From Bolinopsis microptera (lineage: Eukaryota; Ctenophora; Tentaculata; Lobata; Bolinopsidae), in the NCBI RefSeq assembly GCF_026151205.1, contig NC_087080.1, forward strand, positions 4,255,096-4,319,095: DNA of 64,000 bases. Reading direction: 5' to 3'. The notes beneath the pieces are model-generated. The model saw nothing but the letters and a program-made list of their open reading frames with translations, was not told the DNA's origin and searched no databases. The translations under genes and the position numbers were made by a program. Below, piece by piece: positions 27,662 to 57,393 of this stretch; position 1 is the first letter of the stretch; every line of letters begins with the position of its first letter.

Positions 27662-27667
27662 GATAAA

Positions 27668-30348: not shown

Positions 30349-30353
30349 ATTAG

Positions 30354-32328: not shown

Positions 32329-32354
32329 ATGTACACGTCTTATTCTTCAAATGT
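32311..32354. repeat. 22-bp direct repeat at the LINE A 5' end
   Basis: ACACGTCTTATTCTTCAAAT plus GT occurs twice head-to-tail across the ORF1 start on the minus strand. It may belong to the LINE A 5' UTR/promoter. Confidence 0.6.
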
Positions 32355-37783: not shown

Positions 37784-38085
37784 TTAAATGAACTTCTATT
37801 GACCGCAGACTGTTTAACATCGGACTTTGCATCTACTTTTTGTATTAGTTTTTGCTGTATAATTCGATATTTTGCCCTAATAGAGCTCCCATCTTTTTGG
37901 TTGTATCGCAGAATTTATTGTAAGTTTTTTTTGAGTTATATGTACTTGTATTGTCTTGTAATTTTATTTGAAATTGATATCAAACATGAACAAATTGTTG
38001 CTCCTTCTAACATAATGTCACTCAGCAATCCCTTAAATTTCCCTGGCCCTCAATATGAAGAGCTATTATTTAGAGATAGGTCACA

Positions 38086-38997
38086 ATGTCACCCGTCAGA
38101 TCGCCAAAGAAACTACGACTGGACATGCCCGCAGCTTGGCTTTCATCTCGAGGATACGTAAAACTGGCAGTGGAAGGTAACATCGCCGCTGGAAAATCCA
38201 CCTTTCTCAAGCTCATGTCCGAAGAGGGTGGCCTGAAGATGTGCCCTGAACCAGTCATAGACTGGACCAGCATTAAGTTAGACAAGGAGGTTGACCAGGG
38301 AGCAGAGAATAACTGCTAGCGAAGTTCTACGAGGATCCAAAACGTTGGGCTCTCACATTCCAGAACTACGCCCTGTTCAGCCGAGTAAAGAACCAGCCAA
38401 AGTTAGAGTTTGAGGACAAGGGAGTGTATTTGTGTGAGAGGAGTGTGTTTAGTGACAGGTTGGTGTTTGGGAGGAACGGACTGAAGACAAACATCATGAC
38501 ACCTCTGGAGTACAGTCTTTACTGCAAGTGGCACTCTTTCCTCACGGATGATAACTCTGAAACTGACGTGAGTTTCGAAGATTTATTTTGTCTCCTTTTT
38601 GTCTAAGTACTTTTTAAACCTCGATAATATCTTATTTTTCATAAAAGTTTCGTTATTCATACTCTTATCAGGTCCCAAACTAACCTATTATTATTTCGAC
38701 AGGTTGACGGTTTCATCTATCTACGTTGCAGTGCTGAAATCTGTATGAAGCGCCTTGAGACAAGAGCGCGGGCAGAGGAAGATTCCGTTCCCCAGGAATA
38801 TCTGGATCAGATCAACGACCGACACGAGGAGTGGTTTGTCAAGAAAGTGGACGTGCCAGAGAACATCAGCAGGAAACCTACTCTCATCGTCGACTGCTCA
38901 AAGATCTGATTAATGACACTGAGCGACGACAGAAAACGTTGAAAGATGTGCTGGACTTTGCTGCTTTGATCAGTAAACCTAACGTAAGTGGCGGTTA
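38086..38997 (+). pseudogene. Deoxynucleoside kinase paralogue 1, two frameshifts
   Basis: Exons 38086-38567 and 38703-38997. dCK/dNK-type kinases phosphorylate deoxynucleosides in salvage. Visible: P-loop VEGNIAAGKSTF, PEPVIDW, RWALTFQNYA, the YLCERSVFSDRLVF catalytic ERS block, and RCSAEICMKRLETRARAEED (LID arginines). Two single-base deletions break the frame, near 38315 (before LAKFYEDP) and near 38905 (in VDCSK..DLI). Otherwise the protein is well conserved, so either a recent pseudogene or assembly errors. Its single intron matches none of those in paralogue 2, suggesting retroposition followed by intron gain. It lies 302 bp after UCHL5. Confidence 0.8.
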
Positions 38998-39465
38998 GCA
39001 AATCAACTTTGAACTGCAATTTTGACAAACTTTCTACCAACGTGTATTTTCATCTCTTAAGATTTCTGCCAGTTTTTACATCAATCTGTTCCTGAGATTG
39101 AATTTTATTTCTACCAATTTATTCATGTTTATTGAAACCAAAGCTAAATTTATTGATGTTTATAATTTTTCTGCATGTTCTGTTTAATTTGACATCAACT
39201 GATATATAGTGTGACAACAATCTGAAAACCACTGACTGTTTATGTTTTTATTTTATCCTCTTCAAAATAACTGTGTTGTTTTACCATTACCTGTCTTCAT
39301 TTACTGCTTCCCTATTAATGCCCAGGAAATTTCCTTCTGCCGTTCTATGTGAAATACTAACCAATCCCCAATCATAGAATTAATTTCTTCGTTTTTCAGT
39401 ATGGTAGCCATTTGAATTTCAACCAAAAGATGTCCACAACCTAACCCATTTTCATTGTTAGGGTT

Positions 39466-41080
39466 ATGTATTCAGCTCGGAATGGTCCCCTAAAGATCTC
39501 AATAGAGGGTAACATAGCTGCTGGGAAAAGCACATTTCTTCAGTTGGTCAGCAAATATACGGACCTCAAAACCTTCCAGGTTTGTCCTTGATTGTTTTTT
39601 GGTAACATTTTAAAGTTTATCACGTAGAAAAAAAGCTGTATAAATGCATATCAATATCATGATGAACTGACTTGTATTGCCATCAAAACTTTTAACAAAA
39701 CATAACTTTGATCTTATTCTACTCCGGTATCGACTATCGCTGTCATATAGCAATGATTCCAATAATTCCAGTTTCTGCCTGGCAGGAGCCTGTCTGCGAT
39801 TGGACCCACGTCCCTCTCGAAGCAGAATGCGACCCCAAGGCTCACAGCAATCTCCTGGAAAACTTCTATTTGAATCCTTCTAGATGGGGCCTGACGTTTC
39901 AGCAGTTTGTTATTTTCAGCCGGGTAAAGGGTTTTTACGAGGACAAAGAGAATAACTGTCATGACGGGTAAGTGGGACCGTTTTAACTGTGACTTGTGGT
40001 CGCTTCAGTAAAACAGAATGTGATATTTCGTCATATCTCTGAACATAAGAGCGTAAATAAAGGATCTGCATATTGCCCTCGTGTTTCTTATGGCACTAGG
40101 TTTCATACCTTTTCAACATTTTATTCCCCTCACAAATCTAAAACCCCTGATTGTAATCACCACCCACTAAACCCAACTATTTCTCAGATCATTCCTGACA
40201 GAGAGGTCAGTTTGGGGTGACAGACTGGTATTCGCCCGGAATCTGTACAAGCAAGGAGTAATATCAGATTTAGAGTACTCGCTCTACTGTCACCAGCACT
40301 CCTTCTCCTTGGAACGGTGCCCCGATGCTTGTCCTGATGCTATTTTATACCTCAAAACATCTCCGGAGATTTGTTTGGAGAGGCTCCAGCTTAGAGGCAG
40401 AAGGTAAATATTTATATGATTGCCACGAGTTCATTTCTTTATTCGGATCTTATCTGAACATAATACAGGCCAGTCCCGTCGAACGGCAAAATAATCATAA
40501 AATGAACGAACCGGCCGACTTCATGTTGCACATGTCATATTTTTAATAATAACAACACTCCGCTGTCTGTGTTCTGACTGAACTCTGGGTGTGTTTCCTT
40601 GACAACTGACCAGTTACCATGACAACTCGTTTCAGTGAGGAGACAAGCGTTACTCTAGAGTACCTTCAACAGATTCATGATAGACACGAAGAGTGGCTCA
40701 TCCAGAAATCTGTCAACATCCCTCCTAGGTTAGCATTTTACTTCGCATTTCTTTATTGCTTTGACATGCTTTTGAAACAGCCTTGGTGCCAATTAGGCAC
40801 CAAGCTAAGAGACATCAGCTATACTAATAGACATGGCTCCATAACTTGAATATTCAGCATCGCTGTTTAACTTGGAGCCATGTAACACTAACATTTGTGT
40901 CTCAATTCAAATAGCCGTGGAGTGTATCAATAATAATCCAAGTTATGTTTCAGCCTGTCTAAAGTACCTGTGCTAGTGGTGGACTGTTCCAAAAACCTCA
41001 TCAAAGACGATCTGTACAGAGAAGAAGTGTTGGAGAAACTGAAGAGTTTCACCAAATCACTCCAGAATCATGAACAGTAG
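39466..41080 (+). CDS. Deoxynucleoside kinase (dCK/dNK family), intact
   Basis: Exons 39466-39579, 39786-39967, 40188-40402, 40636-40728, 40954-41080 (243 aa). Transfers phosphate to deoxynucleosides. Visible: P-loop IEGNIAAGKSTFLQLV, EPVCDW (substrate Glu), SRWGLTFQQFVIFSRVK, FLTERSVWGDRLVFA (ERS), LYLKTSPEICLERLQLRGR (LID Arg), and IHDRHEEWLIQ. Complete and in frame. Tandem to paralogue 1. An H/ACA-like RNA lies in intron 2 and another in intron 4. dCK, dGK and insect multisubstrate dNK cannot be told apart from these motifs. Confidence 0.92.
39995..40121 (+). ncRNA. H/ACA-like snoRNA, family R2, dNK intron 2
   Basis: Copy of the UCHL5 intron-3 element: 5' stem from CGCTTC (40001-40006) with AGAGCG, hinge AAATAA (40055-40060), ACA 40116-40118. 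The 3' two-thirds is nearly identical to 35752-35845. The 5' hairpin interior has diverged. Confidence 0.55.
40775..40890 (+). ncRNA. H/ACA-like snoRNA, dNK intron 4
   Basis: 5' hairpin CTTGGTGCC/GGCACCAAG (40782-40804), hinge ATACTA (40821-40826), 3' hairpin with perfect base ATGGCTCC/GGAGCCAT (40833-40882) and an inner CAGC/GCTG stem, then ACA at 40885-40887. Single copy in the window; target not determined. Confidence 0.6.
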
Positions 41081-41598
41081 TGTTTTAAGTAAGTGACGTC
41101 ACCGTAGCTATAGTGACAACCTGTTGACCCATGGACGTTTCTATGACGACATGACGTCATTTTATCAGTAATGTTTTATTTTAAATCTTCAAGTTGATTT
41201 TTAACGTATTTCATAACATTTTTACCTTTTTATGTCTTATCTAACTACTGATTAAATTAAGTTTTAATATCTATTCTGTATCTCCGAGTAAAAATAAAAA
41301 TATATCAATATTCCGTGTTTCTCACTCAGTCTCTTACAATCAATATTGGCCTTTTCGAAGCTGGGACAAGGCTACATTCTTGTTCCAGTCAAAAAAGAGC
41401 CTAGAAAAAGTTGTTCTCTACAAGGTCACGTATTGCTATTTTGGCATTACGTATCACCCAAGAGACGCACAGGTCTTACTGTCATGAGTTAATCTTGTTT
41501 TTAGATGGCATAATCTCCAAACCTTTTAAGGCTCGTAGACCTTCGCTCTGATGTTTCATGCGTTCATTTTAATGTAACTAACCATTTTAACCCCTTAG
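41081..41598. other. dNK 3' UTR and intergenic
   Basis: AATAAA at 41293-41298 is a likely poly(A) signal for dNK paralogue 2. A pyrimidine-rich stretch ending CCCCTTAG at about 41599 precedes the first recognised exon of snoRNA host gene 1. No ORF of note. Confidence 0.45.
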
Positions 41599-41869
41599 CA
41601 CAGCAATGGATAGCCTGGCTCGAGTGGACATGAACACAACGTATATGGAAAACATTCCCGCAGACACGGAAAACATTCCCGCAGACACAAATATCTCCCA
41701 CACAAAGAAGGTTAGTAGTTTTCTTTGTAAAGTTACTTCTCCCTTGTGCACACTCGCGACGAAAAGCTCTTATCTTTTGTTTAAGACTGCAATAAGAGGT
41801 TGTGCTACTTGACTATTAGTGGCTTGGAGGGGGGCGGGGTCGAGTTTTACCCTTGCACCAGTATAGCCA

Positions 41870-41940
41870 CCTCACATGATGACATGTTCTGGAAATTTCC
41901 ATGAAATGCTCCCAACTTATGTGCTGAATAACTGACGTTT
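41870..41940 (+). ncRNA. Box C/D snoRNA candidate, host 1 intron 1
   Basis: C box ATGATGA (41876-41882) and D box CTGA (41924-41927 or 41932-41935), C'-like CATGAAAT between. No strong terminal stem. Target unknown. Confidence 0.55.
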
Positions 41941-42033
41941 GAATTTTTCAGATTCGGTGAAAACTAAAGTCTCCGATATAATAGGTGAGTCTGGGTCTTA
42001 TCTTCTAGCTTGAATATTTAAGATTACGTCTTG

Positions 42034-42172
42034 TCGGCAAGAACGATTATTTGTTGGATTGTTTCAATGAATTTTGCACTCTTGTCAGAATACCTCACGA
42101 GGCTGTTCCCTGATGATGTTCTGAATTTTCTGTTTTTGCATCGTCTGCTTTATCATCTTTTGCCTCACAGCA
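42034..42172 (+). ncRNA. H/ACA snoRNA, host 1 intron 2
   Basis: 5' hairpin base GGCAAGA (42036-42042)/TCTTGTC (42080-42086), hinge AGAATA (42087-42092) directly after, 3' hairpin base GAGGC (42099-42103)/GCCTC (42162-42166), ACA at 42167-42169. The only H/ACA RNA I see in this otherwise C/D host. Confidence 0.65.
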
Positions 42173-42342
42173 TGATCTTGAAGTTGAAACGAGAATAATT
42201 TGATTTTTGTCTGGCTCTCCGCTAAAATACGTCTTCACGTTTCAGAAGCAGGCGATACAAGATTTGAAGTTTGAACAAGCGGACGAGATAAGGCAATTAT
42301 TGTGGTAGGTCATCCTTATCATAATAGATTTCGATACTATTT

Positions 42343-42417
42343 ATTACAATGATGACTAAAATAACTTTCGTTCTACTGTATGAACCCTGGAGAAAATCCA
42401 ATGTCGCTCTGATAAAC
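42343..42417 (+). ncRNA. U59/snR54-like box C/D snoRNA, host 1 intron 3
   Basis: C ATGATGA (42349-42355), D CTGA (42409-42412). Before the internal CTGT/GTATGAA (D'/C') lies ACTTTCGTTCT, an 11-nt perfect complement to conserved 18S AGAACGAAAGT, the site guided by human U59 and yeast snR54. The D guide AATGTCGCT also complements conserved large-subunit AGCGACATT. Related copies fill host gene 2. Confidence 0.85.
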
Positions 42418-42580
42418 TCTAGCATTATTGAAATCCGTCTCTAACTAAATTTCAACTAACCTACTTATTTTTACAGGTATCCTTGATCCGCACATTTCGC
42501 CGGAGTACATTTTTGTTGGATGTTGGAGATTTATGATTAGGTAAGAATAATTTGATTTGAATCGTTCCATTTTACTCTTA

Positions 42581-42646
42581 AGTACGTGATGTGCCCATTT
42601 AGTTTAAACTGAAAGACCGTGATTACTTGCATAAATCTGAATATGT
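42581..42646 (+). ncRNA. Box C/D snoRNA candidate, host 1 intron 4
   Basis: C-like GTGATGT (42586-42592), D' CTGA (42609-42612), C'-like CGTGATTA, D CTGA (42637-42640). Four boxes in order within 55 nt; target unknown. Confidence 0.6.
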
Positions 42647-42855
42647 GGCGAAATAGAGGGCTTTTCACTGTCAAAACGGATTTTAATGCAACCAATTTCA
42701 GGTTGAACCGAGTATTTTGAATCAGTAGAACGCTCGCTTAAGTTCGGAGGGATTTCTCTCTGAGTGATTCTAAGTTACCACTCGATCCTGACCCTGATGA
42801 CTGATGTTTTGCGAGGTTGGTAAAAACACTTAATTTATACAGCGTTGTTCCGATT

Positions 42856-42923
42856 CTAACTTGATGATAAGTCTTAACTTCTAGAAAGACCGTGAAGACT
42901 TCATCTTTACTCACCTGAATGAG
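42856..42923 (+). ncRNA. Box C/D snoRNA candidate, host 1 intron 5
   Basis: C TTGATGA (42861-42867), C'-like CGTGAAGA, D CTGA (42915-42918). The host exon just upstream (from 42702) has an unclear 3' end. Confidence 0.5.
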
Positions 42924-43453
42924 CAATATAATATGTTCTCCAGGAGTCTTGCTTGTTTTACGTCTTAAATTTCTGTTTTTCAGGCATCCCTGACTCTTCT
43001 CAAGACTATGGGGGACAAAACACCTTACATCCCTACTTACACGAGGTATATTTCTAAACTATGTAACAATAGCAATAAACTGGTTATTTAGCCGCTGCTA
43101 CTTCATTTCACTTAGTGATCACCCATTTGGTCACCGAGCTGTATAAGCTAGCCACACAGACTGAGCCAAGGATCCAGACTCTTCAAATACTGTGGACTGT
43201 TCTGTTCTATCTTGGCTTGACATTTATTCCTAGACTGGTATGTTCATTTACCAGGTATATTTACCGGGTCACCCACGACGATTTTGAGAATAACTTTGTC
43301 TGACGGGTATTACTCTCAGATTTCGAAAGCAAAGCCATTGGTTAGAATCGAGTGATATCATTGGCTAGCCACAAAGTACGGATACTGGCATGGTGGTTGT
43401 CGGGTAGGTGCTTAATTTTGTTATTTAATGCACCAAATGCAAATATCGCACAA

Positions 43454-43537
43454 CTAAAATGATGACAAATATAAATTCTGAGAACTGTACTCACACTACG
43501 GTTCGCCATGTGATTGTATTCTGCAATACTGACTGTC
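43454..43537 (+). ncRNA. Box C/D snoRNA, host 1
   Basis: C ATGATGA (43459-43465), D' CTGA after AAATATAAATT, C'-like TGTGATTG, D CTGA (43529-43532). Target not recognised. Confidence 0.65.
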
Positions 43538-43692
43538 AGTATCTCAGCTGATCGTTAATTGGTTCGCCTTACTTACCTCTAATCAAAATTACATTCCAGG
43601 TTTTCCTAAGATTTGCTGGGTACATGACTGAAGAAGGAAGCTCAAACGTGTAAGTTAATTTTATGACTAATTCGTAGCTCATTCGTATTCTA

Positions 43693-43810
43693 TTGAAATG
43701 ATGACTCTGAAGGCATTTGTTTGAGAGCTCTTTTTGACACTAAATTAACCGAGTTTTTCGGCCGGTTTTATGTCGCAGAGTTCGCAGGATATCAACCCAA
43801 TCTGATTATT
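43693..43810 (+). ncRNA. Long box C/D snoRNA candidate, host 1
   Basis: C ATGATGA (43698-43704) and D CTGA (43802-43805) with about 97 nt between, longer than most. The boundaries are the least certain of the set. Confidence 0.5.
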
Positions 43811-44002
43811 TACATTGTTAAGGTGAATAAATTGAGTGAAATCAAGTTAATAAAACGTAACCACTTTAGGTTACAAGGTTGTGAAGAATAAGATGAAGTC
43901 CTAGTTGAACAGAATCTCGAGAAGGCACAGGGCGAAATGTGATCGCTTTTATCTTAAGGTAAATTCAACGATCATTTTTATTGATTACTTCTAGCTGTTT
44001 AA

Positions 44003-44072
44003 TATATATGATGAAATTATGAGGCTGTTTTTGAGAATTTCGTGATGTCAAACCAACTCTTTTCTGACAAAA
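44003..44072 (+). ncRNA. Box C/D snoRNA family A, copy 1
   Basis: C ATGATGA (44008-44014), D' TTGA, C' GTGATGT, D CTGA (44064-44067). The guides GAGGCTGTTT and CAAACCAACTCTTTT are kept in three copies. Target not recognised. Confidence 0.75.
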
Positions 44073-44229
44073 GTTTGCGCCGATTTGGTAGAAAGATTAT
44101 TAATAAAATTGGTAATGAAAACGTGTCATATCTTTCAGAATTTAGACAATCAGATGCAGCGGGGAAGATATTCAACATCATATTTCGGTAAATACGACGA
44201 GTTTAATTGATTTAACTGTTTTTGCTTTG

Positions 44230-44298
44230 TATATATGATGAAATTATGAGGCTGTTTTTGAGAAATCGTGATGTCAAACCAACTCTATTCTGATAAAT
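44230..44298 (+). ncRNA. Box C/D snoRNA family A, copy 2
   Basis: C 44235-44241, D 44290-44293. Nearly identical to copy 1, in the next intron but one exon away, implying local duplication. Confidence 0.75.
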
Positions 44299-44532
44299 GT
44301 CACACTAATAATAAGATTATAGAATTTCCAAAATATTTATGAAACTAAATCATATCTTTCAGATGACCCAGATCAGACATTAATACATGTTGCAAATATG
44401 ACCGTTGATCAGAACTAACAACGTGAAAATGTCAACTGACCCAGTTAACTTTTATACCTACCTGGGGGAAAAAGATAAAGGTATGTTGATCTACATATTC
44501 GTTTGAAATGATCACGTCACTGCATTTTCTCT

Positions 44533-44630
44533 TCATGATTATGATGACGCAAAAGGCCGAAGATTAGCTGCCCAACGTTGTGCGCGATGATCTACTACAA
44601 CCCAAGCGAATTATTATTTCTGATATCATG
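44533..44630 (+). ncRNA. Box C/D snoRNA family B, copy 1 (intact)
   Basis: Perfect 6-bp terminal stem CATGAT/ATCATG brackets C ATGATGA (44541-44547) and D CTGA (44620-44623); C'-like GCGATGATC inside. A second copy at 46.05 kb is split by a transposable element. Confidence 0.8.
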
Positions 44631-44779
44631 ACTAGGAAATCAACTAACAACTTGAGAAAAATAGCACCATCCTTAATTTAGATTATTTTCAGTGTTCTTG
44701 GAAAAGGAAGCGACAGGCTGACTGTAACTTTCAGGTGAGAATTTCTTAATATTCCGGTTTACCTTTAAGTAACTGAATT

Positions 44780-44849
44780 TTAAAATGATGAATAAACTCT
44801 GCGTTATCGATGTGAAAACTCATGATCCCAACTAGCGTTACTGATCCTT
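44780..44849 (+). ncRNA. Box C/D snoRNA family C, copy 1
   Basis: C ATGATGA (44785-44791), C' CGATGTGA, D CTGA (44841-44844) preceded by guide CCAACTAGCGTTA. Three copies in this host; target not recognised. Confidence 0.75.
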
Positions 44850-45046
44850 TCATTGATAACTCCTCTCACTGAGAAATCGACCGAGAGATCCTTAAATCTA
44901 CGATTACTTCAGGTCAATCTACCAGCTGTAATCTACTAGCTGACAATAAAGTCCCTGGAATATTGGAATAACTTATGTGGTAAGTAAGAAGTGTAGACTC
45001 CGCATTTATTACATTTAATTAATTACAATTAATTGTAACTTTTCCT

Positions 45047-45112
45047 TTTGTATGATGATATTATGACGGGCGGACTGAAGATTCGTGTCGATTCGTCTCT
45101 TAACTGACTTAT
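45047..45112 (+). ncRNA. U43/snR70-like box C/D snoRNA, copy 1
   Basis: C ATGATGA (45052-45058), D' CTGA, D CTGA (45104-45107). The D' guide GACGGGCGGA pairs with the universally conserved 18S decoding-region CCGCCCGTC, the site methylated under U43 (yeast snR70). Human U43 carries the same guide core. Confidence 0.88.
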
Positions 45113-45345
45113 AAAACCCACTAAAGTATTAATTCAAGTTAATTCGAAAATGTTTTATATTATCATGAAGTGACTTTTCAGCTTGGAGTGACCAGTGGTA
45201 CTTATAGAAAACTACGTTTACTTAAGCCCAGAGGACGATTTCCAGATTGCACAATACTAGTCAATGTGATAACATTGCTGGTAGGTTAGTTTTAAAGTGT
45301 TCAGGATAATTAATTTAATATTTAACATTTCTCCCATCAGTTTTA

Positions 45346-45411
45346 TTTGTATGATGATATTCAGACGGGCGGACTGAAGATTCGTGTCGATTCGTCTCTT
45401 TACTGACTTAA
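45346..45411 (+). ncRNA. U43/snR70-like box C/D snoRNA, copy 2
   Basis: C 45351-45357, D 45403-45406, same GACGGGCGGA guide. Next intron after copy 1. Confidence 0.88.
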
Positions 45412-45582
45412 CAATTATAAACCTATTTATTCAAATCAATTCAAGATTTGATTTGATTTCTAATGACGTCACGCTTCAGCTCGCAGTGACCCTCTTACTT
45501 AGTGCCAGACAAGCAGGTCCATCACAAAGGAAATTATCTGATACTATCGGTAAATACTAGCTCGTTATAAATTACTCTAGTT

Positions 45583-45652
45583 CAGGGTGTCCAGGGACAT
45601 CAGATTTCATACATTTCATAGATTTCATTTTCAAAATCACCTGGACACCCTG
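45583..45652. mobile_element. Tiny TIR element in host 1 intron
   Basis: 70 bp with 13-bp terminal inverted repeats CAGGGTGTCCAGG/CCTGGACACCCTG, hAT-like. The flanks CTCTAGTT and TTCTTGTT match at 6 of 8 bases, perhaps a decayed 8-bp duplication. Confidence 0.7.
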
Positions 45653-45688
45653 TTCTTGTTACTTGTAACAAAAACACTTTTAGCTGTT

Positions 45689-45757
45689 TATATATGATGA
45701 AATTATGAGGCTGTTTTTGAAACTTCGTGATGTCAAACCAACTCTTTTCTGATAAAG
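45689..45757 (+). ncRNA. Box C/D snoRNA family A, copy 3
   Basis: C 45694-45700, D 45749-45752, TTTAT/ATAAA terminal pairing. Same intron as the 70-bp TIR element but not disrupted by it. Confidence 0.75.
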
Positions 45758-46049
45758 GTTTTTTAGATAATGGAATTATTGGCTCACGAAACCGTTTATA
45801 AAAACCTTTTTATCTTTTAGATTAAAACAGATTGGTCCAATCAGAGCTGAGGGTACACCCCTACAACACAGTTCGGCTTTCTTCCAGCTAAGTCGGAGAA
45901 TTGAAGAAAGCGAAAGGATTGTTACCATAGTCCTTAGCTATCAGGTTAGTTTTTTTTGTTTTTTTCAGGTTTCCCCACAAAGCTAAGGTATGTTGATCTA
46001 CAAATTCGTTCGAAATGATCATGTAGGTTATGTCACTGCATATTATTTT

Positions 46050-46609
46050 CATGATTATGATGACGCAAAAGGCCGAAGATTAGCTGCCCAACGTTGTGCG
46101 GGGGGGGGGGGGGGGGGGGGGGGGGGGTCCAAGGGGAACTTTGGGGAACTTTGGGAAAGTCCCCCAAGATTTCTGAAGTTCCCCAAAAAAAAGTTCCCCA
46201 AAACTCCCCAAAGTTCCCCAAAATTATTCAAAATTATTCAAAATTATTCAAAATTTCTCTAATATACATTAATACCCATTAATGTTAACATGTATGTTAT
46301 CATAAGGTATAATCTTAACTTACTTGTTGATACTTGCAGCATGATAATTTTTTTGGCATGATAATTTTTTTGGGGAACTTTGGGGAATTTTGGGGAACTT
46401 TCTGAAGTTCCCCAAAAAAAAGTTCCCCAAAATTCCCCAAAATTATTTGTTTCATTGATAATTTTTTGGGGAACTTTGGGAAAGTCCCCCAGGTTTCCTG
46501 AAGTTCCCCAAAAAAAAGTTCCCCAAAACTCCCCAAAGTTCCCCTTGGACCCCCCCCTGTGCGCGATGATCTACTACAACCCAAGCGAATTATTATTTCT
46601 GATATCATG
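46050..46609 (+). pseudogene. Box C/D snoRNA family B, copy 2, split by a fold-back insertion
   Basis: The 5' part (CATGAT stem, C ATGATGA 46057-46063) matches copy 1 up to the TGTGC at 46095-46099. The 3' part resumes at TGTGC 46558-46562 and runs to D CTGA (46599-46602) and ATCATG (46604-46609). A 458-bp element lies between. Both halves are otherwise almost identical to copy 1, so the break is recent and this copy is presumably dead. Confidence 0.88.
46100..46557. mobile_element. G/C-capped fold-back element
   Basis: 458 bp flanked by a 5-bp duplication TGTGC. It starts with about 28 G then TCCAAGGGGAACTTTGGGGA and ends with the inverse then seven C. The arms consist of iterated GGGGAACTTT/AAAGTTCCCC units in palindromic order around an AT-rich centre. 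No ORF of its own. Length of the G run may be an assembly estimate. Confidence 0.85.
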
Positions 46610-46758
46610 ACTAGGAAATCAACTAACAACTTGAGAAAAATAGCACCATCCTTAATTTAGATTATTTTCAGTGTTCTTGGAAAAGGAAGCGACAGGCTGA
46701 CTGTAACTTTCAGGTGAGAATTTCTTAATATTCCGGTTTACCTTTAAGTAACTGAATT

Positions 46759-46828
46759 TTAAAATGATGAATAAACTCTGCGTTATCGATGTGAAAACTC
46801 ATGATCCCAACTAGCGTTACTGATCCTT
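46759..46828 (+). ncRNA. Box C/D snoRNA family C, copy 2
   Basis: C 46764-46770, D 46820-46823. Part of a duplicated block (family B, exon, family C) that matches 44.5-44.9 kb almost base for base. Confidence 0.75.
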
Positions 46829-47038
46829 TCACTGATAACTCTTCTCACTGAGAAATCGACCGAGAGATCCTTAAATCTACGATCATTTCAGGCCATTGAA
46901 AGAGGAAAATATTGCACAAAATATACCACAGTCCAATGTCTATGCAACAACGCGAGTGGTAACTGGTAAGTCAGATTCGATTTCAGTATTGTATTCCGTA
47001 TAATGTACGACATTCTACATTATTCCAGATCAGTTTTA

Positions 47039-47104
47039 TTTGTATGATGATATTATGACGGGCGGACTGAAGATTCGTGTCGATTCGTCTCTTTACTGAC
47101 TTAT
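47039..47104 (+). ncRNA. U43/snR70-like box C/D snoRNA, copy 3
   Basis: C 47044-47050, D 47096-47099, guide GACGGGCGGA intact. Confidence 0.88.
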
Positions 47105-47277
47105 AAAACCCACTAAAGTATTAATTCAAGTATTGCCTTCGAATTATATTTACAATGACCTAATGTTTCAGTACGGAATGGCATGTGCTGCTCTGCACCA
47201 TGGACCTCAAAGACCCAAGTGTGACAGGAACAGGTAAGACAGATTATAATAAATTGAAGCCTCTTTCTAGGCAAGAC

Positions 47278-47347
47278 ATTGTATGATGAATAAACTCTGC
47301 GTTATCGATGTGAACACTCATGATCCCAACTAGCGTTACTGACTCAA
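47278..47347 (+). ncRNA. Box C/D snoRNA family C, copy 3
   Basis: C 47283-47289, D 47339-47342, same two guide regions as copies 1 and 2. Confidence 0.75.
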
Positions 47348-47624
47348 TTCTCTGGAATCATGTTTGACAAACCGTTTTCTTATTTGGGTGACTTATTTTG
47401 TATATTTCAGAACAACCCGTCCTAGTTGTTGGAACTACAATGCAATGTGGAAACGTGATGAAGATCGAGAATTGAATTAAAATCGGTAAGATCAATCATC
47501 TACACAATGAACGTTCAGAAATCAGACCAATAAATAATATCAAATAAATAGATACAGTTAAAAGTCATTGTCCAGGTCGACATTCACTGTCCTCTCCGCT
47601 CAATTTAAAATAGAGCTCAACATA

Positions 47625-48244
47625 TTAAGCCACTAGCACGAACGCGTAGCTGCAGGCAAGTTTGCTAGTTTGTGTGTTTATCGCACAGCCAACAAACTTC
47701 CTGTTTTCTCCCTCGAACTCCTTCTCAAAATCTGTGATATCGTCCTGGTACTTGAGCTTGTATTCGGAGCAAGCCGTCTCGGCGCTCGTTATCGTCATCA
47801 CGTATTGTTGCTCTAGGACACCTGGAGAAGGAGAGATTGGTTTATTCCAAAAAAGTGAGGTGGTTGGTTTCTGTTATGGTTTTAGTAGTTTGGAATTTGT
47901 GTCTAAAACTTTGAACAAATTGCTGGATGTAGCTTTACCTGATCGTTTTCTTCTGGAAGTAGCAACGAGGCTCCTTGCCTTCTTAATCAAAGTAGAGGAC
48001 ACTGTAAACTTATGGTCTTGATGGTACTTGAGGATACACCCCACTTCCGTCAGTTCGTCTTGTGTTGAAAGTCCCAGACACGTTATCAGCACTGGAATGT
48101 GTGTTACTGTAAGACTGAGGTGGGTCTTAAGTAAGATTATTTCGTAAAAATGACCTGACATGATCTGAGACTTTCATTATGGAAATGTCATACATTCATA
48201 CGATGTTATTATTGATTAATACCTGCTAGTACACGCCAGCTCAT
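47625..48244 (-). CDS. Small secreted protein with dibasic cleavage site, unknown family
   Basis: Three minus-strand exons joined in frame: 48244-48223, 48091-47939, 47821-47625 (123 aa). Exon 1 and the start of exon 2 make a clean signal peptide (MSWRVLAVLITCLGLSTQ, cleavage expected near DELTEV). The mature part has four Cys (VGC, TACSEY, VGCAIN, LACSYA) and a furin-like RRKRS where exons 2 and 3 meet, followed by a hydrophilic DDITDFEKEFEGENRKF segment. I do not recognise the family; a cleaved hormone-like or cytokine-like precursor is possible. It is the only host gene on this strand. Reading exon 2 without the exon-1 splice gives a longer N-terminus that looks less natural. Confidence 0.6.
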
Positions 48245-49874
48245 CTTAACCAACAGCTGTCCAAATCTACTCTGTAGGGTGGGGATTAGTAAAACTTAAA
48301 TAACGACGAAATTAATTTAGATATGAATTGAACGGAACATATTTGAAGCGAACTCAATAAATGATCGATTACTGAGGACGAAATGAGAGTTTTCACTCAC
48401 CGAAAGCGCTATCGTATCATATTAAATTACATAAATATTTCGCTTATGGTCTTCGAAATATCCGAAATACTGCGTTGAGCTACGGATTCATTTAGTGAGA
48501 TATCGCGTTATTACTGGTCAACCTCACGTATCAGACCGGAGAAATAGTTCTCCACTTCTGAAGAACTGAAAGGGTCTACATGATCATATAACGTTTAGCG
48601 TGCAATTACTATTAGCTGGTGCAGACGGTTCACAGGGTGTCGGGGTATGAATGCACGTGATTGCTCTTAAACCAGTAAAAACTGGGGTAACTTTTGTTAA
48701 TCATGGCCGGCAACATAAGGAACCGGGGATTAGTTTTTACATACACAATAGTAATACCCCACATTGTTCACCTCCGTCCTCCAAATGAGAAGGTTGTAAC
48801 CTTGTGAAAATCGTAAAACAGTGTTTTTGGCCATAGAGAAATGCAATTTTTCCAATGATCGGAGAAATCTCAAAAAGAGGATGGCAGTCCTTAAACGATA
48901 GAGATTTGGCACACTGCACTCGAATGGAAGTCAAATTGTGGGAATTGTCAGTAAAGAGTTGTTATATGTCAGAGAAAATTAAGTAAGAGATTTCTCATTT
49001 CCAGCGAAGCTCCAGCAACATTGGCCAGTAATATTGAAAGATAATTAATAAAATGTAAGTAGTTGCTTGACCTCACGCCTTAAGAATCCTGTCCCCGGTC
49101 ATATCACGCCTGATGCCTACTACCTATTACTACTGCTAGCAGAGCCAGGAGTAGTTAATATCAAATCAAAACGTGCATCGCAGCTCTCCGCAAATCATTA
49201 AAGCGTTAACTGAGGCGAGCTTAATATTAGAAATAGTCTTTCTGAATTTTAGGAGCAATGATAGTAAAGCAGCCTGGCGCGGCGTTGAATTTAATTATCC
49301 CTCCAGCACGCGACAGCTAGCTTAACATGTGGATAAACGTGTCTCACCATATCTACCAAATTTCCAGGCAGCTAGTCCTCTGCGATTTTATGAAATCGAA
49401 CATGCCACTTTTTAAATGTGATATATAATTGACGGCCCCTCTGGACATGCTCTACTATCGGCTTTCCAGGCCACGTGCCTAATCGAACTGCATAATTAGG
49501 GGAATTCTAATCTGTTCGGTTTGCCGGTGCAGTGGTTCGGAATTCATCTGGTTATGAGGACACAAAATGGCTAAAAATATACATAATTACTGCCGCTGGT
49601 AGAAAAACGTCCCGACGACACGCTTACTTCTAATTTAGTGTTGCAATACGATTAAATGAAACCAACGCGAACGGTTGAAAACGAAACGAGAAGATGGAGC
49701 GTGAAACGTAACAATTTCTACTGAAATATATTGAGAATAATGACTCTGGTCAGTGGTCAACTGTGCCTTAGCACTCCATGAGGGAGGAGTAAGTATAATA
49801 GTCCCGATTTAAACCCTTCGCCTTTATGCAGCTCAATTATAGAGCTCACCTCAACGTCTTCTCTCCTATTATCG

Positions 49875-50540: not shown

Positions 50541-50669
50541 AGACATACGTATATTAGTGCTCGCTTAACAGTTACTTATCACTTCCATTGATGCACGCTT
50601 ACTTTACATGTACACACTAAAACAAACGAACTCTAAAACAAACGAACAGTTAGGAACGGACTATAACTG

Positions 50670-50696
50670 GGGGGGGGGGGGGGGGGGGGGGGGGGG
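50670..50696. repeat. Poly-G tract
   Basis: About 27 consecutive G followed by AGGG. No inverted partner or duplication nearby, unlike the G-capped element at 46100. Confidence 0.8.
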
Positions 50697-53326
50697 AGGG
50701 CAAAAAGATAATACCTAAATAGTAGTAATCGAGCGGTGTTAAATATTTGTAAACTAAATATTTTATGATTACCACCTTAAAATAGTACCAACAATTACCA
50801 TAAGGTCGCATCAGGGCACTTGAAACATATTCCTAGCGGGATTATAACGAAATGGCGCAAAACTATAATACTACAATACCTTGGCTGTTAATCTATTTAA
50901 CTACTCTTTCCTGAATAATGGAATAATTTTAATGGCCAGTAAAATTATTGCTATAATTGATTGAAAGTTCCCTGTAAGTTAAAACAGTGGAGGAGCCAGA
51001 AAAGCGACAGAAAATCAAGACTTATTTTACTTCGGTGTATTCCAACAGCCACATTGTTACACAAGTGCAGCCAATTACAGGAAGCCGAAGAATTTATTTG
51101 GCCAGTGACGGTTAAGGTAGTTGTAAAAAACGGCTTCTCGAAATCAGTCGAGTAATTTTTAGTTTATTGTGAATTCGATGAAAAATAATTATTTAGCGAA
51201 TTTTATTTGAATTTATAGTCTTCTTGTGCTGTGGGAGGCAAAACTTTTCATCAAAGGACAAATCATTTTGAGGGTGGTCAACCACAAAATTGAGAGTGCA
51301 CGTGAGAATCGATCTTCTACCTAGAAAATAATTTGACTTATTTGAACTAAAAATACTCGCGGATTTGTCCGAGAGTGCTCGACTGAAATATAGAGAGCAC
51401 AGATTAACTGACCATCAGCTTCATAGTCGTTTAGAAGATAAAATAGGGGCACGATCATGCGGTCGTAGAGTCGCTGGCTTCCCAATATCCTTGTGTACAC
51501 CTTGCAAATGGTAAATAAAATATATATGAAAATTTTAGGCCATCTTTCCTGTCAACAATTAGTTTACAGTTTAAGACATAGTTAAATTCCAATAAAGCCT
51601 CTCCATTCTCCAACAATCTGAACACTGCATATAATGTCACCCCACCAACGAGCTGATTAAAAACCAAAATAGTAGAAAGAGAAATTTGAATAAGGAAAAG
51701 TATCCATAAGTAATGGAATAATCAAACCAAATTAGGCTAATAAAAAAGAGGACATTAGTAACTCAACGTGTTATACCCTTGAATGCTGGTTAAGAGAGTA
51801 CAATGATAAAGATGTGAAGTCTGTTCAAAGAGTCAAATAACACTTGTTTATAATGACGACAGATCTAGATCTTAAGCATAAAATTTTGCTTCAGAATGTG
51901 TTAACGTTGCTTTTTCCGCTCTGATATAACTTTAAGGAACAACGTTGTACGACCAGTTTTAATTTGGATAAAGGAATATATGTTAGTTGTTTTTGAAGTT
52001 ATATCCATGTCAATTGACCAAGGCATCGTAAAAATTTTACGAGTTACGACCATCTGAAAAGAATGGATTTATTGAGAATTATTGGTCCTCGGTTCCAAAG
52101 GTGATCTTGTATCCTGGATGGAGATTCGGAACTCATACTGACTGAATTTTTGATGTTTACCAGTGCTTATATACCGCCCCGATTCACTGCATCACGGTAA
52201 AACGGCCGTTTACCGCAGTGGTCAGCCGTTTATTCTTGTGCTAAACGGGTTTTAAACCTTTCTCTCCGCACTGTGGATATTGCAGACGTTAAAAGGTACA
52301 ATGTAGGACGGTTTGACCCCTTTATTGGCTACGATCTACGTTATTTCAAAACAACGTCTTTTACTTACATGAATACATGGGAAAGTTTCAGATTTACGAT
52401 TATCTTAGAATTGGTTTTGACGTGCAGTTAATTCTACTAGCAGGAACCCGTCTAGCCCTAAAGTGGTCTCAAGAGACTAAAATGATTATTGCCTATTTAA
52501 TTCGCGTTTTTGACACCACTTGGGGGTCCAAATTTTGGGCTCTAAAATTCCTATTCCTTGGCCAATTTTTTATTTTTTCATGCTGATTTGGATGCCATAT
52601 AAAAGCATTCGACGCAGTCAAAAAAATTCTCAGTTGTATATCTTTTACGGTTTTTGCGGAAAGTCGCGTTAAAGTTGATGCCGTGGTACGGATAAATATA
52701 TATATAGTAAGATGTAGTTTTACGAAGATTTCAAGCTTTACGTTCGTGTCCAAAAGCATTATATTTTCAACGGATTTATATAGTAAGATTTAATAGAGAA
52801 CAAGTCTGAATACCGGGCCAGTACGTTTAAATCCTTACCAAGTGACCAACTCGTTTACGAGAATTTCTAGACTACTGTTTACCGATTAAAGCAACAACAA
52901 ATTTGAAATTTAAAGATCTTGTTTTAATGTATTTTGAGTTGAGCTCTCACATTGCAGTGGTGAAGTTTTCAACGGCCACCGCAAATGCTATTGCTCAACA
53001 AACACAACAATTATATATTATATATTATAAAACCGGCCTGATCGAGATCAGAATAATAGGATTTATTTTATATTGAAACGTAGTCAAAATATAATCTCAC
53101 AAAAATAGTTAAATCGCAAAGTTGTCGTTGTGTAATGGATAAGTTAAAGTTTGCTCCATTTGATGCAGATGATGGTTTTAATGTTGGAGGAGATTATAGA
53201 ATTTTAAAATAAAATTTGAATCTTTCAGAGAGAATTTGCAGCATGGACTTTGGTAACAAAAAGCGGGATATCAGAATTCGTAACCATGTAAGCAATTGAT
53301 ACTTTTTGTTTTGTTTTATTCACAAC

Positions 53327-53382
53327 ATTGAGTGATGACGCCTTTTCAAATTCATAAAAGGTCACACTTTTTGCTGACTACT
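53327..53382 (+). ncRNA. Box C/D snoRNA, host 2 intron 1
   Basis: C GTGATGA (53332-53338), D CTGA (53374-53377). Short (about 55 nt). Target unknown. Confidence 0.6.
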
Positions 53383-53915
53383 GAAAAAAGTTTCATTCTT
53401 GTCTGATTGCATCTCCCTGCTATATAAAGTCTAACCGAAAATAGGAAATCGCTAATAAACATACTTATTTTAGAGTAGAAACCACCGGAGGTAAAGTTCA
53501 TGATAACCAGATTGGAAGATCCTACATTCCGACATCATCACAGGTATGAACAATTCTCATAACCATCCACCTGACGAGTAGTTTAGTTTACCAAAAACTC
53601 AATTAATAACTGAGTAAAGTTTCTACCCTTAAAGAGGAATCTATAATTATTGGTATTCACGTTATTTCTTCTGGCACTTACGGAGATAACCTCACCAGTT
53701 GTGTAAGGAATTAAGGGAATGTTGCTCGATTTTCATGAAAAAAAAAGATATGCAGCGTTCTTAGTTAAATTACACTTAGATCTGTTATTCGGGAGTTCAG
53801 TTTAGAATTTGTTTTGACCCCTTGCCTTGTGTGGTACTCGTCTCACTAATCTTATTTGTGGCGTCTAATATTTACAATCCTCCACTTGGTAAACTAAACT
53901 ACAAGTAAAAAACAA

Positions 53916-53980
53916 TATGATCTGATGACGCAGTAAAAGATATGAAAGACCCTGATCGTAGAATTGATAGCTGATCATCC
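53916..53980 (+). ncRNA. Box C/D snoRNA, host 2 intron 2
   Basis: C CTGATGA (53922-53928), C'-like TGATCG, D CTGA (53971-53974), with ATGA/TCAT terminal pairing. Confidence 0.6.
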
Positions 53981-54239
53981 AATTAAAATTCATCTTGATT
54001 TTCCAGTTTTCACCCAATGTTATTTCAACACCTACCCTCAGGGTTAAACGGTGCAGTTTGTGGTATTTCAACGCTGCTCTCTCTATCGCTGAAATCTTTA
54101 AAAGGTAAGTTCTTGTTCTGCAGACTCTGACTACTTCTGATAGGAATGTAATTCATTTCTTGTTTAAGAGCAGTTGATGTTTTGGATTAGCTTACAATTT
54201 AGACTCGTTACTTTTTGTGTAACTTCTATTTACTCGAAC

Positions 54240-54340
54240 TCACGAATGATGAGTTCTATGTTACACACTCTGATTTTGAGAAAATGCATTAATTTGTGCT
54301 TCCCCAAACTTCATGATGACACATTTTCTCTGACTTTTCA
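54240..54340 (+). ncRNA. Box C/D snoRNA family E, copy 1
   Basis: About 100 nt with four good boxes: C ATGATGA (54246-54252), D' CTGA, C' ATGATGA, D CTGA (54330-54333). Four nearly identical copies in successive introns. Guides CTATGTTACACACT and CACATTTTCT; target unknown. Confidence 0.75.
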
Positions 54341-54761
54341 CTTCTTTTTTATTAATGAATAATAATGGTCGACATGGTTTGTAAGATCTTGTGCTTCAGG
54401 TGGTTCCAGAACGGCGTGGTGACTGTTTTATCTGGGCAGTTATAGATAATTACACCTGTCTAATCTCATTACAGTTATATGCTCTGCCAACAAATCTCCT
54501 CTTTCAAGGTACATGCACTGTAACTGTGCAGTAGTTTTGTATGATCATGTACTGTGCAATAATTTTAACCTTGTTACCAAGCTTTTTAAACCCTAGGCCG
54601 AATAAAATCAATCTTAGATAAATTATTACATGGCCAAATTATGATACGGCCAAGACAGCCACCATATTTGTCCACAAACAATGTCCCTAATTAATAAAGA
54701 ATAAGAAGTGAAGACCGGGGAGGTCTGTAAGAAGCAGTTAGGTAGACATCAACTTCGAACT

Positions 54762-54862
54762 CATTGAATGATGAGTTCTATGTTACACACTCTGATTTTG
54801 AGAAAATGCATTAATTTGTGCTTCCCCAAACTTCATGATGACACATTTTCTCTGACTTTTCA
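54762..54862 (+). ncRNA. Box C/D snoRNA family E, copy 2
   Basis: C 54768-54774, D 54852-54855. About 50 bp of upstream intron (AAGAAGCAGTTAGGTAGACA) is also shared with copies 3 and 4. Confidence 0.75.
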
Positions 54863-55263
54863 CTTCTTTTTTGTTTACGCACGATTATAGGTAATGAGAT
54901 TTATGATATATTAAAATTCAGGGGGTACAGACAAGAACGTTCCAGAATATTTGGTGACTTGATCTGGACAGTGGAGAATTTTACCTGTTCTATCTCTGGG
55001 AATATCGCAGCTACATAATCTGTCACCAAATCTCTACCCCCAAGGTTTGTGCACCTAAATAACCTTGTTATTTAGATTTTCAACTGCAAGTTTAAGTCTG
55101 AGAACACGTTTAATTTAACGTCGGTTGCACTATTATACCAAACCAGAGTTGGCGGACTAAGAAAAATTATTCACCACATTTTTCACGATTAATTTCACTT
55201 ATAAACATTAATATGGACCGGGAGGTCTGTAAGAAGCAGTTAGGTAGACATCAGGTTCGAACT

Positions 55264-55364
55264 CACTGAATGATGAGTTCTATGTTACACACTCTGATTT
55301 TGAGAAAATGCATTAATTTGTGCTTCCCCAAACTTCATGATGACACATTTTCTCTGACTTTTCA
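55264..55364 (+). ncRNA. Box C/D snoRNA family E, copy 3
   Basis: C 55270-55276, D 55354-55357; same four-box layout. Confidence 0.75.
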
Positions 55365-55782
55365 CTTCTTTTTTGCTTATGTACGGAAATGAAGATAGAG
55401 ATTTCTCAAAACTTGCTAATTCAGGGGGTGAAAGATTGAAAGTTCCAGAAAGATTTTGGGACTGTTAAATCCAGACTGTTGAGGATTCCACCGGAGTGAT
55501 CTCTGCAATCGATGAAGTTGTAAACCACTGAATGTCAAATTCAAGGTATGTGCATTGGTGGAGGCTTATTGTTGAGCTTGTAAACCCAAATATGATCACA
55601 TTCACCTTAGCTTTAGGTTACATAAATACATCACCATACCGGACCTAAGATGGTGGACTTTGAAAAATTCCGCTATCGCCTATCATACATTTCCACAAAT
55701 AATTTAACTTATAAATATTAATATTGACCGGGAAGGCCTGCAATAATATAAGAAGCAGTTAGGTAGACATCAGGTTCGAACT

Positions 55783-55883
55783 CACTGAATGATGAGTTCT
55801 ATGTTACACACTCTGATTTTGAGAAAATACATTAATTAGTACTTCCCCAAACTTCATGATGACACATTTTCTCTGATTTTTCA
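55783..55883 (+). ncRNA. Box C/D snoRNA family E, copy 4
   Basis: C 55789-55795, D 55873-55876. Slightly diverged from copies 1-3 but all boxes kept. Confidence 0.75.
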
Positions 55884-56127
55884 CTTTTGTCTACGTACGA
55901 TCATGATTAGTTTTAAGATTTCTAATATATTTAAATTCAGGGATTAAAGAACGGTCCGGTTCTTTACGGTGACTGTTGGATCTGGACAGTGGCTCTGCTT
56001 TAACATGACATATCTATATCAATGTGATCTGGTTTAATCATATAATAATAGTCTGGACAAACGGACCAGATACTAGGATTATCCTGGTAGGTCCACATCT
56101 CATGATCCTATAATATTCCGTTCCCTT

Positions 56128-56200
56128 ATTTTCATGATGACCCAAATAACTTTCGTTCTGTATGAACCCTGGAGAAAATCCAATGTCGCTCTGATTTACT
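56128..56200 (+). ncRNA. U59/snR54-like box C/D snoRNA, host 2 copy 1
   Basis: C ATGATGA (56134-56140), D CTGA (56191-56194). Closest to the host 1 copy (same CCCTGGAGAAAATCCAATG), but ACT of the D' region is missing (CGTTCTGTATGAAC). The 18S guide ACTTTCGTTCT is intact. Confidence 0.82.
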
Positions 56201-56361
56201 AAATTATTTTATCTTGTTTAGAGTTTTTGAAGTGTCTTATTTTATTCTGTTTCAGAAACAGAAAATTAACGATGGATCAATGTTGTCGAACAGAGAGCGC
56301 CTATTAGGTTAGTCTCAAATTAAATAAAGGACTCTGCTCCTAAACTTTTAAATAGATAATT

Positions 56362-56428
56362 AAAAAATGATGCTCTAAACTTTCGTTCTACTGTATGAAC
56401 CATGGAGAGATGTTACTATCTGATTTTA
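56362..56428 (+). ncRNA. U59/snR54-like box C/D snoRNA, host 2 copy 2
   Basis: C ATGATGC (56368-56374, last base changed), D CTGA (56420-56423), 18S guide intact, new D-side sequence GAGATGTTACTAT. Confidence 0.78.
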
Positions 56429-56625
56429 AATTATCTTTGACCTTGTTTGAGCGCTAGTTGCTTTTATGATTTCTAATTTACAACCATTTTCAGCTATCAA
56501 AACATCGCAGGACAGAAATATCGGTGTCGACCACTTGCAGAGTTTATTCTAGGTGAGCTTAAGTTTTATATTAAATATTGGACTTACCCCCAAACTTTAC
56601 TTTACGATAAATAATATAATAATGA

Positions 56626-56683
56626 TGTTCTAAACTTTCGTTCTACTGTATGAACCATGGAGAGATGTTACTATCTGAATTTA
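56626..56683 (+). ncRNA. U59/snR54-like box C/D snoRNA, host 2 copy 3
   Basis: C ATGATGT (56632-56638), D CTGA (56675-56678). Intron and downstream exon are near-identical to those of copy 4. Confidence 0.78.
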
Positions 56684-56868
56684 AATTATCTTTGACCTTG
56701 TTTGAGCGCTAGTTGCTTTTATGATTTCTAATTTACAACCATTTCAGCTATCAAAACATCGCGGGACAGAAATATCGGTGTCGACCACTTGCAGAGTTTA
56801 TTCTAGGTGAGCTTAAGTTTTATATTAAATATTGGACTTACCCCAAACTTTATTTTACGATAAATAAT

Positions 56869-56936
56869 ATAATAATGATGTTCTAAACTTTCGTTCTACT
56901 GTATGAACCATGGAGAGATGTTACTATCTGAATTTA
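56869..56936 (+). ncRNA. U59/snR54-like box C/D snoRNA, host 2 copy 4
   Basis: C ATGATGT (56875-56881), D CTGA (56928-56931), 18S guide intact. Confidence 0.78.
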
Positions 56937-57123
56937 AATTATCTTTGATCTTTGAGCATTGCTCGTTTGTAATGATGTGTAATTTGGAAAAATTTCAGCT
57001 TACGAAAAAGTCCCGGTACTCGAAAGAATGGAAAGTTTTTAAACAAGGTTTGTTTTTTCTTTTCTTTTTAACTTGAGCAACAGCCAACTAATGGTGATGT
57101 TGATTTATTTTGTGCTGACGAAA

Positions 57124-57193
57124 AACTTAATGATGTTTAATAAACTTTCGTTCTACTGTATGAACCATGGAGATTTAGTAATTTCTGAATAAT
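57124..57193 (+). ncRNA. U59/snR54-like box C/D snoRNA, host 2 copy 5
   Basis: C ATGATGT (57130-57136), D CTGA (57185-57188), 18S guide intact; D-side guide diverged again. Confidence 0.76.
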
Positions 57194-57393
57194 AAGTCAG
57201 CATTCTGTCTCCTATTTTGAAGTCAATCTTTTTTGTATCATGCTATTAAACATTACTTTGCAGGTTGCGGATTTAAATCGAACCAATGACGGTTAGTCGA
57301 AACACCAGTGCAGCACTGAGATTTTTAGATTCTAACAAAAGGTGTGTTGGATTTATCATTGCCTAAACCATCTCGTCTGAAATGCCTTTGCTT

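Follow-up and report, generated by a model that had tools for sequence, protein, structure and literature searches.

A 19-intron locus with the anatomy of a non-coding, UHG-type gene dedicated to hosting snoRNAs

The vertebrate UHG/SNHG and GAS5 genes, which host small nucleolar RNAs (snoRNAs) in their introns, give transcripts with a 5' terminal oligopyrimidine (5'TOP) start that are turned over by nonsense-mediated decay. For animals in general, a rule of one snoRNA per intron and the existence of non-coding hosts have been described (PMC11028025; this and the other papers given by PMC number are cited from excerpts, to which the statements made of them are limited). The Drosophila Uhg genes (dUHG) have up to 16 introns with a single snoRNA each and no recognizable open reading frame (ORF), and are dedicated to snoRNA production (PMC4430873). 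Outside these groups, introns of sponge ribosomal protein genes contain snoRNAs, and eight snoRNAs have been annotated in Trichoplax (PMC3412847). Here we describe a locus that can be set beside these systems, host gene 1, whose modelled part occupies 41599-47545 on the plus strand of a 64,000-nucleotide (nt) stretch of contig NC_087080.1 (positions 4,255,096 to 4,319,095 of assembly GCF_026151205.1), the whole of which is called the window. The gene kind (UHG, dUHG, SNHG) is already known from flies and vertebrates, and host gene 1 is ordinary in kind and rich in content. Like the Drosophila Uhg genes it lacks a long ORF and has mostly single-snoRNA introns, whereas it has 19 introns in which box C/D and H/ACA-like RNAs are mixed; the likeness drawn is one of layout. 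With vertebrate UHG/SNHG and GAS5 it shares a non-coding character, mostly one snoRNA per intron, and a characteristic position of the C/D RNAs ahead of the 3' splice site; the comparison is one of arrangement (PMC11028025, PMC8162545). The sponge ribosomal protein genes resemble it in their intronic snoRNAs and differ in that they code for proteins (PMC3412847).

The model of host gene 1 consists of 20 exons and 19 introns, with a spliced length of 1618 nt, and its splice sites, set by eye from 40800-48400 with no gene finder, are GT-AG by construction. The introns span 41711-47410 and measure 161-271 nt, save intron 16 (727 nt), which is enlarged by an insert; the exons measure 33-149 nt, the first and last being incomplete or inferred, with a putative first exon and a putative 3' end placed near letters that resemble a polyadenylation signal. 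An apparent 24-nt intron at 45945-45968 was dismissed by eye as too short, and the 5' splice site at 45945 was joined instead to 46671; a scan for sigma-70 promoters and terminators was discarded as inapplicable to an animal gene. A box search finds intact C/D RNAs in 15 of the 19 introns (3, 4, 5, 7-15 and 17-19); intron 16 holds a split C/D copy, introns 2 and 6 hold H/ACA-like RNAs, and intron 1 holds nothing convincing.

The original experiment on the position of C/D RNAs relative to the splice site was reportedly that of Hirose and Steitz in 2001. In host gene 1, the end of the D box lies 61-74 nt from the 3' splice site in all 15 introns with an intact C/D RNA (mean 68.1, standard deviation 3.6), and the distance between the C box and the 5' splice site varies from 44 to 144 nt in the same introns. 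When one member is taken of each of the nine C/D families, namely A to D and the single RNAs of introns 3, 4, 5, 7 and 8, the standard deviation of the D box distance is 4.0, and none of 100,000 random placements was as tight. This near-fixed spacing is the best evidence for a host gene and is as expected for splicing-coupled C/D assembly: most C/D RNAs are reported to have a conserved position upstream of the 3' splice site, with an optimum some 50 nt ahead of the branch point, and AQR/IBP160 assists their assembly (PMC8162545). The boxes themselves are well kept, with CTGA as the D box in all 15 RNAs and a C box that matches RTGATGA at 7/7 positions in 13 of them and at 6/7 in introns 4 and 5. 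RTGATGA occurs 15 times in the sense direction in 4,329 bp of introns, 13 of these in accepted RNAs, one in intron 1 and one in intron 16, with no antisense occurrence; for comparison, positions 1-41000 of the window contain it 11 times on the plus strand and 13 times on the minus strand.

A rule-based scan of the window, which sought a C box, CTGA, a 3' splice site 55-79 nt further on and a 5' splice site upstream, and whose rules were fixed after the gene had been inspected, returned 15 matches in host gene 1, nine at 53240-57880, where a second host gene lies, and elsewhere two on the plus and three on the minus strand. When 20 block-shuffled windows were scanned in the same way on one strand each, they returned between 0 and 4 matches. 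Of the 15 matches in host gene 1, 14 belong to the accepted 15 RNAs and one is the doubtful candidate of intron 1; the scan missed the copy at 45052. A stricter scan that needed a terminal stem of at least 4 bp found four units on the plus strand (those at 44541 and 47283 belonging to the accepted set) and none on the minus strand, and was replaced by the box search.

Several of the C/D families are duplicated within the gene, and the likeness between copies is largely confined to the snoRNA units. Family A (intron 9, 44003-44072; intron 10, 44230-44298; intron 15, 45689-45757; all C/D RNAs are on the plus strand) shows 93-94% pairwise identity over 69-70 nt, and family B (intron 13, 45047-45112; intron 14, 45346-45411; intron 18, 47039-47104) shows 94-98% over 66 nt. 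In family C (intron 12, 44780-44849; intron 17, 46759-46828; intron 19, 47278-47347), the first two copies are identical over 70 nt, and the third matches each of them at 87% over that length and at 98% over the 60-nt part between the C and D boxes, boxes included. The flanks were at or under the shuffle 95th percentile in 13 of 18 comparisons, the 3' flanks of introns 9/15 and the 5' flanks of introns 10/15 being level with it after rounding; the five comparisons above it were introns 12/17 on both sides (100% and 96%), 13/18 (73%) and 13/14 (63%) on the 3' side, and 14/18 on the 5' side (61%). Introns 16-17 repeat, at 99% identity over 300 nt, the block that begins with the 5' splice site of intron 11 and ends with the 3' splice site of intron 12; intron 17 belongs to a cassette duplicated from introns 11-12, and exon 12 is identical to exon 17. 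Genome-wide searches of the 264.65-Mb assembly, which miss short copies, covered families A, B and C, the intron 3 RNA and SNORA16; families A, B and C were found in three copies each, all of them in host gene 1.

Family D comprises the RNA of intron 11 (44536-44628), which has a 7-bp terminal stem, and a broken copy in intron 16 (46052-46607), both halves of which match the copy at 44541-44623. The break is due to an insert of 458 bp (46100-46557), which has inverted repeats at its ends and is bordered by TGTGC on either side. As a side observation, the ends of this element are G-rich/C-rich, with TTTGGGGAACTTTGGG repeats inside and a run of 28 G at the left end, and a second 28-G run at 50669-50696 resembles the end of this element. 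Rfam matches of microRNA-like and sRNA-like kinds within 46123-46541 were rejected, as they fall on the inverted-repeat insert. Another inverted repeat, CAGGGTGTCCAGG...CCTGGACACCCTG at 45581-45652, stands upstream of the family A copy in intron 15 and accounts for the longer 5' part of that intron.

The region is very probably a non-coding gene of the UHG type, dedicated to hosting snoRNAs, and the original prediction of a host like UHG or GAS5, each intron carrying one snoRNA, finds support in C/D RNAs at a near-fixed distance in most introns, in units that are alike amid mostly unlike flanks, and in exons of which no frame is open throughout. Judged from the DNA alone, transcription, splicing, processing, protein binding and methylation can be pictured as a single sequence of events. 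RNA polymerase II would make one long RNA, from which the spliceosome would take out at least 19 introns; the C/D protein complex would assemble, with the intron still in the spliceosome, on the RNA situated some 68 nt upstream of the 3' splice site; after debranching, the lariat would be trimmed back to the snoRNA; and the joined exons would be a by-product. The mature C/D RNAs would guide 2'-O-methylation of ribosomal RNA (rRNA), with family D perhaps directed to U2 small nuclear RNA (snRNA), and the H/ACA RNAs would guide pseudouridylation.

A number of observations weigh against a dedicated, working host gene and are taken up here and in the next two paragraphs, together with the alternatives to which they lend themselves. 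The spacing count involved some choice, alternative CTGA letters being present in introns 7, 12 and 17; the D box of intron 17 was taken at 68 nt, as in its paralogues, over the script's top choice at 56 nt; and off-rule candidates in introns 1 (16 and 24 nt), 6 (90 nt) and 16 (266-495 nt) were left out. Copying of short units could likewise yield similar cores with dissimilar flanks. By a crude rule the terminal stems measure 1-4 bp, except in family D, and no C/D RNA in host gene 1 reaches its Rfam cut-off: family B scores 18.4-20.5 bits against SNORD43 (cut-off 45), with SNORD53/92 as the best model for the intron 14 copy (17.9 bits), and the intron 3 RNA scores 25.4 bits with SNORD59 and 27.1 bits with snR61/Z1/Z11 (cut-offs 45), so that 'like' rather than 'member' is the appropriate word for both. 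An assignment of family A to U18 was rejected, as SNORD18 gave 23.3-25.2 bits against a cut-off of 41 and snoU18 26.2 against 47, and the guide UGGUCCGUGUUU of the model consensus is not kept. Low scores, short stems and the family D copy with its insert are what might be expected of snoRNA copies in tandem that had decayed or been retroposed and were no longer expressed; such decay is nevertheless highly improbable, since 15 introns retain intact C and D boxes and the distance from D box to 3' splice site stays within 13 nt over nine families.

The exons raise a different alternative, a protein-coding gene (with a frame in the last exons, for example) that does no more than house snoRNAs, in the manner of ribosomal protein genes. 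Protein-coding snoRNA hosts are common in animals (PMC11028025), and one frame of the spliced model runs for 124 codons free of stops, a length reached by 25 of 1000 mononucleotide shuffles; this run is taken as a mild oddity and not as coding evidence. The three frames of the 1618-nt model contain 19, 32 and 35 stops, which bears out the earlier claim of stops in all frames, none is open throughout, and the longest ORF that starts with ATG has 41 codons, as many as 799 of 1000 mononucleotide shuffles reach. A coding gene is accordingly a very unlikely reading of exons that fit a non-coding host. At the 5' end, exons 1-2 (41606-41984) contain a 37-codon ORF with an ATGG start in the first modelled exon, an internal ENIPADT repeat and a TGA in exon 2, which, if translated, could trigger nonsense-mediated decay.

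The predicted guides add to the case unevenly. The genome's own 18S rRNA was located by pattern and confirmed by Rfam, and 25 stretches were paired with it (17 from host gene 1 and 8 from the second host gene). The intron 3 RNA (42344-42417) forms 12 Watson-Crick (WC) pairs and one GU pair with 18S AGAACGAAAGTTG, one nucleotide before its CTGT D' box. For family B there are nine WC pairs with 18S CCGCCCGTC, to which the copies of introns 13 and 18 add a GU pair, and the guide again stands one nucleotide ahead of a D' box, here CTGA. The likeness of the intron 3 RNA to SNORD59 (U59) consists in ACUUUCGUUCU followed by one base and CUG, which fits own 18S AGAACGAAAGU; family B has the SNORD43 (U43) guide UGACGGGCGGAC, which fits own 18S CCGCCCGUC, although the remainder of family B is unlike that model. 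Pairing length alone proves little, because intron 1 and a stretch over the D' box of family X yield 12 WC and one GU with 18S as well, in neither case at a guide position; the guide letters in common with the Rfam SNORD59 and SNORD43 consensus are the stronger argument. Against a lenient control of 60 shuffles each, run on six of nine targets, two of the 25 box-adjacent guides exceed the shuffle 95th percentile, where about one is expected. The U59-like guide does so narrowly (26.9 vs 26.3), and the U43-like guide falls below it (23.3 vs 25.9); the other guide above it, and clearly so, is the D guide of the 53332 RNA of the second host gene, which scores 30.9 (highest shuffle 29.3) and forms 14 WC pairs and one GU pair with 18S directly before the D box. 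The original prediction had spoken of U43-like and U59-like RNAs, and these names hold at the guide letters, which match both the Rfam consensus and the 18S beside the D' box; they hold less well for the RNAs as wholes, given scores far below the cut-offs and an intron 3 RNA that slightly favours snR61/Z1/Z11.

Beyond 18S, family D offers a suggestive lead. Its stretch CAAAAGGCCGA (44550-44560) is the exact complement, over 11 bp, of positions 9-19 of the same genome's U2 snRNA; one of 300 shuffles was as good, which comes to about 0.05 after correction for the 15 RNAs tested, and no canonical D' box follows the U2-complementary stretch. Family D may guide U2, in which this stretch includes Gm11, Gm12 and Gm19, guided in vertebrates by scaRNA2, SNORD89 and scaRNA9 (PMC7960923). 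A pairing of family B with U2 145-155 (10 WC and one GU) was taken as chance, 6-11 of 300 shuffles being as good. For the large-subunit (LSU) rRNA, eight eukaryote-like stretches from public bacterial genome records (seven bins and one isolate) served as stand-ins; their source organisms are uncertain, and not all of them span the whole LSU. Family C TCTGCGTTATCG matches stand-in CGATAACGCAGG four times over three of the eight contigs (26.1, shuffle 95th percentile 28.0), and family X TGTTACACACT matches AGTGTGTAACA at 24.4 in all three of the listed stand-ins, out of eight (95th percentile 25.4); both are leads only, and equally frequent LSU matches occur outside guides, at CTTTTCTGACA over the family A D box (four of eight contigs) and GTAACTTTTC before the family B unit (five of eight). 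Families A and D and the RNAs of introns 4, 5, 7 and 8 have no convincing rRNA target in own 18S or the LSU stand-ins.

Directly upstream of host gene 1, at 38000-41080, lie two tandem deoxynucleoside-kinase-like genes (named by eye). Between them and the modelled start at 41599 stands SNORA16, an H/ACA RNA at 41344-41474 (+) that scores 43.4 bits against a cut-off of 35 and is the sole match in the window at Rfam curated cut-offs; the fold of 41344-41477 has a z-score of -4.4, and the genome search gave no second match among 43 scored of 16066 first-look candidates. Its presence beside the gene speaks for the host-gene reading, and, together with gene content judged by eye, it marks the genome as animal-like. 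SNORA16 presumably sits in a further intron beyond the model, which would need an upstream exon. That need, along with the letters at 41078-41094, which read the stop codon TAG, TGTTTTAA and then GTAAGT at 41089, 8 nt past the stop, would suit a read-through transcript in which the snoRNA introns lie in the 3' untranslated part of the upstream kinase-like gene. However, AATAAA at 41293 and two TGACGTCA palindromes between the kinase-like stop codon and SNORA16 (41094-41101 and 41152-41159) could mark a separate 3' end and a separate promoter, and the read-through transcript is an unlikely, if not negligible, alternative to an independent host gene. TGACGTCA occurs three times in the window (41094, 41152 and 45464, on the plus strand), where shuffles average 0.79 and 3 of 100 reach three; the first two copies, 58 bp apart and ahead of SNORA16, form a candidate host-gene promoter with possible CREB/ATF-type sites.

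The remaining intronic RNAs of host gene 1 are single or less certain. Intron 2 contains an H/ACA-like unit (42031-42172, +) made of a hairpin, an AGAATA hinge that fits ANANNA, a hairpin closed by GAGGC/GCCTC, and ACA; its hairpins have z-scores of -2.8 and -2.8 and the whole unit -1.2, and an Rfam scan below cut-offs returned no snoRNA family match. The H/ACA-like unit of intron 6 (43089-43225, +) is weaker (-1.5 and -1.9 for the hairpins, -0.4 for the whole), and its hinge box, judged by eye, is not consensus. Single C/D RNAs lie in intron 4 (42581-42645, with a weaker C box; D box to 3' splice site 61 nt), intron 5 (42859-42923; 65 nt), intron 7 (43454-43537; 67 nt, with another CTGA at 48 nt) and intron 8 (43693-43810; 64 nt), the last a long unit with 108 nt from C to D. 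In intron 1, a C/D candidate (C box at 41876) is doubtful, since only 16 or 24 nt would separate its D box from the 3' splice site, and an H/ACA reading shows no fold signal (-0.2, -0.5 and, for the whole, +0.5). Earlier counts for this gene are amended by this inventory: about 17 introns had been credited with a C/D RNA, and the introns and RNAs do exist where they had been placed, with 19 introns now modelled and 15 of them intact in this respect; the single H/ACA RNA that had been announced is an undercount, there being two H/ACA-like RNAs in introns and SNORA16 upstream; and the three unassigned families correspond to A, C and D, to which introns 4, 5, 7 and 8 add four more unassigned RNAs.

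The second host gene (53240-57880, +) contains four family X C/D units (54196-55923), six U59-like units (56126-57713) and the C/D RNA at 53332. The genome search with the intron 3 RNA of host gene 1 gave further matches just at 56126 and 57129, both in this second gene, and comparison within the window gave four additional short matches at 56378, 56633, 56886 and 57666, whose escape shows that the genome search misses short copies. Elsewhere in the window, 18676-32346 (-) contains broken reading frames of a non-LTR (long terminal repeat) retrotransposon, reverse transcriptase- and endonuclease-like (named by eye). A wider and distinctly tentative picture, which we consider possible but doubtful, would have two dedicated host genes about 6 kb apart whose C/D families have expanded locally and are renewed through duplication of entire intron-exon-intron cassettes and through passage between the genes; with family D perhaps guiding U2 (9-19), one transcript would supply guides for both rRNA and the spliceosome, and, if the animal is a non-bilaterian, UHG-type genes would predate bilaterians.

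In the literature, a search at the level of titles and abstract openings, which covered few subscription journals, turned up among the matches listed no announcement of a non-coding gene dedicated to hosting snoRNAs from a sponge, ctenophore, placozoan or cnidarian, from which no priority claim follows, and the excerpts of PMC12309372 and PMC6211395 contain nothing on dedicated non-coding snoRNA hosts. Host gene 1 adds to the known systems a large, 19-intron dedicated snoRNA host gene whose C/D RNAs stand at a near-equal distance from the 3' splice sites. If the species lies outside flies and vertebrates, this arrangement would suggest that the rule of splicing-coupled assembly is widely shared. 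Lastly, with copies of differing age within one gene, the locus is a good place to follow how snoRNA families duplicate, break and spread between hosts.

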